Below are positions 4,708 to 15,196 of a stretch of DNA of 64,000 nt, one piece after another. Under the pieces are notes generated by a model, which worked only from the letters and a program-made list of their open reading frames with translations, was not told the origin of the DNA and searched no databases. Origin of the DNA: Candidatus Hydrothermarchaeum profundi (GTDB taxonomy: Archaea > Hydrothermarchaeota > Hydrothermarchaeia > Hydrothermarchaeales > Hydrothermarchaeaceae); NCBI GenBank assembly GCA_002011125.2, contig MTMF02000009.1, positions 1,332,989 through 1,396,988 on the forward strand, written 5' to 3'. How positions within the stretch are numbered: position 1 is the first letter of the stretch; every line of letters begins with the position of its first letter. The translations under genes were made by a program, and so were the position numbers.

Positions 4708-5097
4708 ATGAAAGTCAAAGATGTTATGAAACGTAACGTAGTGAGCGTAGATGTTGATTCCAGCCTCGCTGATGTGAAGAAAAAAATGATTGAAAATAAT
4801 GTCAACTTTGTAGTTGTTAAGGCAGGCGGGGAGATCGTCGGAGTTATTTCAGATACTGATATACTAGCGTATGCCACAAAGGGTAAGAGGCTGGAGGACC
4901 TTAAGGCTGAAAAATATATGACTGCTTGCAAACTTGAAGGTACTAATCCCTGTCTTCAAGTCTTTGAAGACGACCCCTTAGAAGAAGCTGCCACTATAAT
5001 GGCTGCTACTGGAGTGCATCATCTATTAGTGTGGGGTAAGAGCGGTTATCCTGCGGGAGTTATAACTTCTGATGATATTCTTAAGGTGGTAAAGTAA
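4708..5097 (+). CDS. CBS-pair protein inside the fpo operon
   Basis: A 129-residue protein made only of two CBS motifs (a Bateman module): KVKDVMKRNVVSV at the N-terminus and a second unit beginning AEKYMTACKL and ending GVITSDDILKVVK. Such modules bind adenine nucleotides or SAM and act as energy sensors. It has two bases between it and fpoC and one base to fpoD, so it is almost certainly co-transcribed and co-translated with them. A regulatory or accessory role on Fpo is inference. The insert region with CKLEGTNPCLQV carries two cysteines, unusual for a CBS pair. Confidence 0.9.
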   Translation: MKVKDVMKRNVVSVDVDSSLADVKKKMIENNVNFVVVKAGGEIVGVISDTDILAYATKGKRLEDLKAEKYMTACKLEGTNPCLQVFEDDPLEEAATIMAATGVHHLLVWGKSGYPAGVITSDDILKVVK

Positions 5098-13409: not shown

Positions 13410-13826
13410 ATGCTTAAGGAGGCTTTCTATAGAAGGATGATAGATGCTAACACTCTTAGAGCACAATTTGAAACTATCTATGGCGACGTAGACCTAGTAG
13501 TAAACGTTCTGCAAAACTGTGTAAAATATGGTGAGAAACTTAAATCTATAGCAAAAAGGAAGGAAGACGAAGACATGGCAAACGCTGCTATTGAAAGTAA
13601 CACTGCAATGCTATCAGCTATAAAAGGCGAAATATCAGTTGCGGAATTCAAAAAGAAAATGTGGGAGCTTGAGGAACGTTATCCTGAGTATTTCCAAAGA
13701 GGAAGGAGGGATATAGGCACCTCGAAAGATAATGTGAAAGCCATAATTCATAGGATAGAGTATATGATAGATAGATATGATGTCAGGTATCCAAGCTATG
13801 ATCGACATAGGTGCAATGATGCCTAA
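13410..13826 (+). CDS. Unknown soluble protein downstream of fpoN
   Basis: A 138-residue, charged, mostly helical protein with no hydrophobic segments and a single cysteine. It starts one base after the fpoN stop, with GGGGGTCTG upstream, so it is part of the fpo transcript. In Methanosarcina the gene at this position is fpoO. I see no iron-sulfur cysteine pattern here and cannot claim homology. The middle (FKKMWELEERYPEYFQRGRR) is amphipathic. Function unknown; a peripheral Fpo subunit or assembly factor is possible. Confidence 0.75.
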   Translation: MLKEAFYRRMIDANTLRAQFETIYGDVDLVVNVLQNCVKYGEKLKSIAKRKEDEDMANAAIESNTAMLSAIKGEISVAEFKKKMWELEERYPEYFQRGRRDIGTSKDNVKAIIHRIEYMIDRYDVRYPSYDRHRCNDA

Positions 13827-13836
13827 GGTGGTAGAG

Positions 13837-14097
13837 ATGAGGGAACAGATTAAGGAATGTATTGAAGAGTTTGAAAAGGAAAAGACGGAGGTGGCAGCTG
13901 CTAGGCTTATCATATGTTTATATAATAACAAGGAAACTATTTACTGGGATGATGATCTAAAGAGGTTAAAATGCGCTGCAGAGGTTCATGATGAAAAGTG
14001 GGCTCCGTTAATGGAGGAGATAACTAAAGTCCTAGGGATAAAAAATAGGGATGAATACATTAAAATTAAAAACAAGTATAATTTAACGCAATACTAA
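13837..14097 (+). CDS. Unknown small protein at the end of the fpo operon
   Basis: An 86-residue charged protein beginning MREQIKECIEEFEKEK. I placed the start at ATG 13837 because AGGTGG lies five bases upstream; in-frame ATGs at 13777, 13780, 13816 and 13819 would overlap the previous gene by up to 50 bp. It contains three Cys and a WDDDLKRLKCAAEVHDEKW segment. No family recognised. Position suggests co-expression with Fpo. The next DNA is the paired hairpin element. Confidence 0.65.
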   Translation: MREQIKECIEEFEKEKTEVAAARLIICLYNNKETIYWDDDLKRLKCAAEVHDEKWAPLMEEITKVLGIKNRDEYIKIKNKYNLTQY

Positions 14098-14102
14098 TTT
14101 TT

Positions 14103-14168
14103 AGTGGGAGGGGTGCCTGCGGGGGCGTTACTAAAATAAGTATTTATCCCGCAGGCAAGTGGGAGGGA
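14103..14168. repeat. Hairpin unit 1 bracketed by AGTGGGAGGG repeats
   Basis: A perfect 10-bp inverted repeat (TGCCTGCGGG at 14114-14123, CCCGCAGGCA at 14148-14157) encloses a 24-nt AT-rich loop. The direct repeat AGTGGGAGGG occurs immediately on both sides (14103-14112 and 14158-14167). The unit is intergenic, between the fpo operon and a convergent CBS gene. It could be a structured RNA, a terminator or a protein-binding repeat. A second unit of the same design follows 43 nt later. Confidence 0.7.
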
Positions 14169-14211
14169 GATCTTTGCTTTTTTGTATAAGTGCTGTATAA
14201 ATCTTTCGGAA

Positions 14212-14276
14212 AGTGGGGAGGGGGCCTGTAAGACATTTAAAAATAGGTCTTTGTCTTACAGGCGTATGGGGAGGGT
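14212..14276. repeat. Hairpin unit 2 bracketed by GTGGGGAGGG-like repeats
   Basis: A perfect 12-bp inverted repeat (GCCTGTAAGACA at 14224-14235, TGTCTTACAGGC at 14252-14263) with a 16-nt loop. AGTGGGGAGGGG lies before it and TATGGGGAGGG after it. The stem keeps the outer GCCTG/CAGGC of unit 1 but the inner stem differs while remaining fully paired, as expected of a conserved structure. The remaining bases to 14356 are AT-rich and I see nothing else in them. Confidence 0.7.
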
Positions 14277-14356
14277 AATAATCCATGAAATTTATATCAT
14301 TTATAAATTTTTCCCTATTTCTGGTTTTATTTTTAATGTAGTGATACTACTCTGAG

Positions 14357-15196
14357 TTATAAATTATTGTTTGAAAGGGCATTTAGCATTGTGGTAAACG
14401 TAAAAACGCAAAATTTTGAAATGTCCTTTTCGCTTATAATTCCAACGACTCTACCTCTATCTATAATTGGAAGCCGTCTAATATTGCGTATATTAAATAA
14501 TCTACTAGCATCTCTGATGGACTTTTGAGGTTCTATGGAAGTATGGAGAGGTGTATGTATAATACCTATCATTACATCCTCTGGTGGTAAGGCCTTAGCT
14601 ACGACTTTTTTCAATACATCTCTCTCAGTTGCGATGCCGTATTTCCCCTCTGCGACTTCAACAATTACTTCTCCTACTCCTTTTTCCTTCATTAGTTTAG
14701 AAGAGTCTAATACAGAGGTTTCGGGGTTTTCAATAATTGCATCATGCATGATCTGTGACACTTTACATTCAAGGCTTCTAGCATGTTCTTTACACGTCTC
14801 TGAAAGGATTTGTATGGACTCATCATACAGGAAGATATTGTATCTAGCGACATCTTTGTTGTCTAATATACCCACGATAGTTCCCTTATCTACTACTGGC
14901 AACCTTCTAATATCGTAAAGATTAAAAAGCTGACAGGCACGTCTAACGTCTCTCTGAGCCTCTATAGTACGTAGTTCAATGCTCATGATTTCTTCCGCTT
15001 TGGTTTGAAGGAAGTCTTTATTTTTAGATACTACCTTGTATAGAATATCTCGCTCTGTGACAATACCAAAATCTTTATCTCCGCGATCTACTAGTACAGC
15101 TCCAGCATTTCCTTCGTCCATCAGTTTAGCGACTTCTAGTACGGAGGCATAAGGTTTTACAACTATTGGGGGATACATTAGTTCTCTGATTTCCAT
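14357..15196 (-). CDS. Four-CBS-domain protein
   Basis: A 279-residue protein consisting of two Bateman modules. CBS units start near residues 1 (IRELMYPPIVV), 65 (AEEIMSIELRT), 140 (VSQIMHDAIIE) and 205 (IGIIHTPLHTS). The repeats FGIVTERDILYKVV and YGIATERDVLKKVV, and DIRRLPVVD and NIRRLPIID, show internal duplication. Such proteins sense adenylates or SAM. There is no fused effector domain, so the target is unknown. It converges on the fpo operon. Confidence 0.88.
   Translation of the reverse strand: MEIRELMYPPIVVKPYASVLEVAKLMDEGNAGAVLVDRGDKDFGIVTERDILYKVVSKNKDFLQTKAEEIMSIELRTIEAQRDVRRACQLFNLYDIRRLPVVDKGTIVGILDNKDVARYNIFLYDESIQILSETCKEHARSLECKVSQIMHDAIIENPETSVLDSSKLMKEKGVGEVIVEVAEGKYGIATERDVLKKVVAKALPPEDVMIGIIHTPLHTSIEPQKSIRDASRLFNIRNIRRLPIIDRGRVVGIISEKDISKFCVFTFTTMLNALSNNNL

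Follow-up and report, generated by a model that had tools for sequence, protein, structure and literature searches.

Two tandem hairpins of Candidatus Hydrothermarchaeum profundi as probable members of an archaeal small-RNA gene family with a putative Shine-Dalgarno-masking tail

Two hairpins surrounded by G-rich repeats are found in tandem at positions 14103-14276 of a 64,000-nucleotide stretch of the genome of Candidatus Hydrothermarchaeum profundi (hereafter, the window). What are they? The original prediction, made from the letters of the window, saw in them a new structured RNA family or a protein-bound repeat, possibly forming G-quadruplexes, at the end of the Fpo operon. Archaeal regulatory RNAs defined by comparison throughout a phylum are few, and the Hydrothermarchaeota are uncultured. 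The best explanation as a whole, to which we give an even chance, is that of small RNA genes transcribed from their own promoters on the minus strand, belonging to a Hydrothermarchaeota family and carrying a tail that masks Shine-Dalgarno sequences. One component of it, the existence of a small-RNA gene family on the C-rich (minus) strand, is judged highly probable from comparative data.

The hairpins and their distribution

Both stems are perfect, with 10 bp and a 24-nt loop in hairpin 1 and 12 bp and a 16-nt loop in hairpin 2 (coordinates in Table 1). They have GCCTG/CAGGC in common on the outside, while the inner pairs differ and are compensated. G-rich copies flank hairpin 1 (AGTGGGAGGG, 14103-14112 and 14158-14167) and hairpin 2 (TGGGGAGGG, 14214-14222 and 14267-14275). 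In 5000 mononucleotide shuffles of 14103-14276, one such stem appeared in 2 and two stems in none. The coordinates and the shuffles thus confirm the stems, and the sequence confirms the four G-rich copies, as originally described. The motif GTGGGRGGG, with one mismatch at most, has 16 matches in the window against 11.2 expected, so that alone it is not clearly enriched; it is the combination of stems and G-rich motifs that matters.

Searched at the DNA level (E<=0.001), the own genome yielded the query place alone. Among relatives of the same order, hairpin 2 was matched in two (E 9.7e-9 and 0.007), where reading shows the same layout. A pattern search of 23 genomes of the class gave further copies, and of these the own genome has four (the two of the window and two elsewhere). 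Fifteen copies formed alignment A1, from which an untidy pattern match (L025) and pattern matches without the G-rich layout were left out. The covariance model built on these copies found matches in 20 of the 23 class genomes at E<=0.1, several weak ones (R1) being left out of further reading. A second model, built from 45 matches and searched over 297 genomes at E<=0.01, gave 59 matches in 21 of the 23 Hydrothermarchaeota class genomes, with 1-6 per positive genome and no copy in G020 and G022. Alignment A2, a separate set of 59 rows, lost 8 that repeat, on the reverse strand, hairpins counted before. The count within the class depends on the model, 45 of the 59 matches being training rows. 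The near-absence elsewhere does not: two of 274 other archaeal genomes had one match each (E ~0.006), where chance expects 2.7.

A strict-pattern scan of genome contigs found 7 contigs of archaeal MAGs and three bacterial contigs, the latter being taken as chance from their titles. A viral origin was also rejected, given that two viral-contig pattern matches are chance-like and have no A+T-rich promoter, and a second pattern gave none. Rfam (release 15, gathering threshold) reported nothing but tRNAs, both in the window and in 10 copy-bearing loci, and at E<=10 it gave only two chance matches in 14050-14350, far below threshold. A literature search on small or noncoding RNA in Hydrothermarchaeota returned nothing on such a family. 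It is well supported by these comparisons that the hairpins are two members of a dispersed multi-copy family restricted to Hydrothermarchaeota. The copies that a covariance model was expected to reveal have been found both in this genome and in relatives, and the proposal of a new structured RNA family is upheld by the lack of an Rfam match, the copies in 21 of 23 class genomes and the compensated stems.

Related to this, 90.9% of the stem cells are paired in 40 distinct rows of an alignment that was fitted to the structure, and pairing falls to 51.6% or less when the partner is slid by 1-3 columns. The first pattern required some outer pairs and none of the inner ones. Cells with both sides changed number 86 against 27.7 in shuffles, and 0 of 500 shuffles reach that value. 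Further pair types (17 against 19.6) are not above the shuffles, and pairs with changes on both sides (9 against 7.8; 107 of 500 shuffles) are weakly above them at most. As judged from the alignment, the RNA secondary structure of the family is conserved and changes in it are compensated, in line with the early remark that the inner stems differ while pairing is kept.

Transcribed strand, promoters and predicted RNAs

The G-rich strand was first assumed to be the transcribed one, an assumption that promoter direction, wobble bias and fold z-scores all speak against. Among 29 distinct stems read on the G-rich strand, imperfect pairs of the core comprise 15 cases of A·C or C·A and 2 of G·T. As A·C on that strand means G·U on the C-rich strand, the latter contains 15 wobble pairs and 2 mismatches (15/17; two-sided binomial p ~0.002, relatedness ignored). 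For the two window units, the fold z-scores of the C-rich strand are -5.06 and -6.28, and those of the G-rich strand -2.35 and -2.58.

The promoter points in the same direction. On the C-rich strand, a TATA-like box precedes the hairpin at a fixed distance; in its strict form it occupies -36..-27 of 22 of 39 distinct copies, against 2.1 on average and 8 at most in 2000 shuffles. A CCGAAA-like BRE comes before it, on the side pointing at the hairpin, and the A+T fraction reaches 0.95 at -30..-28. Neither flanks nor promoter took part in any search criterion. The remaining 17 copies are without a strict box at the expected place, some of them with looser boxes. The count, in which 57 copies were collapsed to 39, excludes L148 and L062 (cut by contig ends), one copy with fewer than 70 bases of flank, and L100, L145, L146 and L147. 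Taken together, the direction of the promoter, the wobble bias and the folding make the C-rich strand most likely the transcribed one.

In Thermococcus kodakarensis, the reported median distance to the start is 23 bp for the TATA box and 33 bp for the BRE (PMC4247193). The family promoter is at this archaeal distance, which would place the start of transcription on the first hairpin base or close to it. In the window the boxes are ~13 nt further out than usual, that of RNA 2 being at -44 from the hairpin; both RNAs should therefore begin just 5' of an additional C-rich motif, which would explain why the window has four G-rich copies. A subfamily of the f2 genomes (L098, L099, L101 and L102; stem GAACCCATGAG) is without the box at -31 and has an A+T-rich box further upstream, so its start may be well before the hairpin.

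According to the model proposed here, ~14097-14316 of the minus strand would hold two tandem small non-coding RNA genes, each separately promoted and each producing an RNA (Table 1). The BRE/TATA promoter would be followed, at or just after the start, by a stable hairpin with a U-rich loop, which would protect the 5' end, and then by a single-stranded C-rich tail around CCUCC; the two window RNAs would have the additional C-rich motif 5' of the hairpin. Both C-rich tails are unpaired in the predicted folds.

Table 1. Predicted parts of the two small RNA genes in the window
Feature	Position	Strand	Basis
RNA 2 BRE/TATA promoter AGGGAAAAATTTATAA	14301..14316	-	sequence and family-wide promoter position
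Predicted RNA 2, ~72 nt	14205..14276	-	start deduced from box; both ends predicted
C-rich motif 5' of hairpin 2, CCCTCCCCA	14267..14275	-	sequence
Hairpin 2, stem 14252-14263/14224-14235, loop 14236-14251 with UUUUU	14224..14263	-	fold, covariation
RNA 2 C-rich tail CCCCTCCCCAC, CCTCC inside	14213..14223	-	sequence
RNA 1 BRE/TATA promoter CCGAAAGATTTATAC	14195..14209	-	sequence; missed by strict family box motif
Predicted RNA 1, ~74 nt	14097..14170	-	ends predicted
C-rich motif 5' of hairpin 1, CTCCCTCCCAC	14159..14169	-	sequence
Hairpin 1, stem 14148-14157/14114-14123, loop 14124-14147 with UUUU	14114..14157	-	fold
RNA 1 C-rich tail CCCCTCCCAC, CCTCC inside	14104..14113	-	sequence

The C-rich tail and its possible action

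From 5' to 3', the members of the family consist of a GCCYAUGGG-like stem arm, a U-rich loop, the second arm and the C-rich tail. The loop contains UUUU in 53 of 60 copies, and the tail contains CCUCC in 57/60 and CACCUCC in 20/60 (L100, L145, L146 and L147, doubtful or control matches, being left out of the tail counts). In one subfamily of the f2 genomes the tail extends as CCCCCUCCCCAACACCUCCC and meets a U-run in several copies. Across the family, a U-run of at least four after the tail, a possible RNA end, is present in only 23/60, and A-runs in 13/60. The tails of the two distant own-genome copies (L051 and L068) share CCACUUAU after the C-tract, which could mark a common target or 3' end.

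The anti-Shine-Dalgarno sequence has CCUCC at its core. Many genes of the window have a GGAGG- or GAGGT-like sequence before the start codon, although the start was chosen by its match in that listing. As precedents, the bacterial C-rich sRNA IsrR is described as acting on Shine-Dalgarno regions (PMC9410917), and masking of ribosome-binding sites has been reported for sRNA154 and sRNA41 of archaea (PMC5867862). The tail, the precedents and the Shine-Dalgarno-like sequences are the reasons to propose that the CCUCC tail would pair in trans with GGAGG-type Shine-Dalgarno sequences and block ribosome binding. The U-rich loop would be bound by a protein, for example the archaeal Sm-like (Lsm) protein. 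That Shine-Dalgarno masking is the main action of the family is a tentative proposal, which we place just short of an even chance.

In a duplex test, each of four tails paired more strongly with the start regions of genes than with their interiors (p 0.0006-0.005). However, shuffled tails prefer start regions nearly as strongly (mean difference -1.49 versus -1.62 kcal/mol), so that what is supported is base composition and not order-specific pairing. Of the own genome's 16S gene, the first half alone was recovered, at a contig end (L154, G000:C8), and the test therefore used an assumed anti-Shine-Dalgarno sequence. Starts of the neighbouring Fpo operon have a slight advantage in pairing over other starts (p 0.04-0.07; six correlated tests), and have it with the tails of the two distant own-genome copies as well, which is a lead only. 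In the 23 genomes, GGGGAGGGG stands before ATG 96 times, family members included, against 67 for the reversed control, and is not clearly enriched.

These results bear on a different reading, in which the RNAs are small RNA genes and their tail and U-rich loop are sites for a protein (a chaperone, a ribosomal protein or a processing factor), the RNA being a scaffold or sponge. It would suit the conservation of tail and loop composition beyond length or exact order, and it does not need the order-specific pairing that the shuffled-tail control leaves unsupported. Nevertheless, a protein site need not match the anti-Shine-Dalgarno core, as 57 of the 60 tails do, and we consider this reading rather unlikely, though the most serious of the alternatives. 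Equally speculative is a broader version of masking, in which phylum-wide decoys copying the anti-Shine-Dalgarno core, from several promoters per genome, would rival 16S rRNA in binding mRNA leaders and in this way set the translation of large gene groups. Literature searches on FttA with C-rich RNA, on anti-Shine-Dalgarno small RNAs and on archaeal covariance-model screens gave no lead.

With regard to known systems, IsrR resembles the family in its single-stranded C-rich regions, one of them abutting a stem, which in IsrR pair with Shine-Dalgarno regions; the same paper names FsrA as another C-rich sRNA of Firmicutes (PMC9410917). As described there, IsrR carries three stem-loops together with a bacterial terminator, whereas in the Hydrothermarchaeota family a single hairpin goes with an archaeal promoter and a C-rich tail. 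The sRNA154 and sRNA41 of Methanosarcina mazei are archaeal intergenic sRNAs for which ribosome-binding-site masking has been proposed, as here (PMC5867862), but by their description they are single sRNAs of Methanosarcina, whereas the present family is multi-copy and of another phylum. Should the tail mask Shine-Dalgarno sequences, archaea would have in this family a counterpart to the C-rich sRNAs of Firmicutes, and one that may have evolved independently. The 6C RNA of Actinobacteria is a hairpin RNA with conserved C-runs located in the hairpin loops, in contrast to the C-runs of the Hydrothermarchaeota family, which lie in the tail after the hairpin; the family itself has no Rfam match. 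The hairpins look like a new archaeal small-RNA family resembling C-rich, Shine-Dalgarno-directed sRNAs, whose expression and action on targets are predictions. Its strand, promoters, alignment and covariance model make a direct test possible in existing metatranscriptomes.

Genomic context and the remaining explanations

The window units are flanked on one side by the 3' end of a complex-I-like (Fpo/Nuo-type) operon and on the other by that of a CBS-domain gene, encoded on the strand opposite to the operon. They do follow the operon, as originally stated, but are not part of it, since they are convergent to it and have their own promoters. A role as terminator of the Fpo operon was discarded too, because the copies have promoters of their own and adjoin unrelated genes. 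The operon ends in two overlapping ORFs without Pfam match (13410-13826, 138 aa; 13777-14097, 106 aa). The CBS-domain gene (14357-15196) ends beside the small RNAs, and a search of genome contigs for its relatives gave none; a two-CBS-domain protein is encoded at 4708-5094, inside the operon, between the genes of the 30-kDa and 49-kDa subunits.

The neighbouring genes are also relevant to the possibility that hairpin and tail are 5' leaders, with which the message of the following same-strand gene would begin and which would control that gene in cis. The next tail-side ORF shares the strand of the copy in 30 of 51 cases (53 rows, two without ORF; ORFs called mechanically, orthologues uncollapsed), and in f2 genomes it is repeatedly ~87 nt away, the sole one checked (L061) being a lyase. 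Against this, it is convergent in the other 21, including the window, where the operon is convergent and there is no gene to lead; the downstream genes checked are unrelated, twenty neighbour proteins belonging to unrelated Pfam families or to none, and in several f2 copies the tail is followed by a U-run. Convergent and unrelated neighbours fit stand-alone genes better, and leaders are improbable.

An RNA of the G-rich strand, or a DNA element at the operon end (G-quadruplex, terminator or protein site), appears more improbable still. The G-tract GGGAGG is near-invariant across copies and the window units come after the operon, but promoter direction, wobble bias and folding point to the other strand. 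By inspection, most other copies have one G-tract with two G-runs, four or more not being conserved. G-quadruplexes are disfavoured, and with the C-rich strand transcribed the G-rich repeats would be the complement of single-stranded C-rich RNA.

A mobile palindromic repeat, REP- or MITE-like, would account for dispersed, palindromic matches (1-6 per positive genome) with a conserved flank, but it is the least credible of all, given that copies of the same genome have divergent stems and loops yet retain the pairing, the tail and the promoter, that the own-genome search gave the query place alone, that some copies are common to different genera (f2), and that the 20 neighbour proteins scanned include no transposase.

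Small RNA genes with their own promoters are thus the preferred reading of the family. As a minor observation on its surroundings, a tRNA intron endonuclease gene is found near L052 and L068, in two genomes, with different orientation and distance, perhaps by chance.
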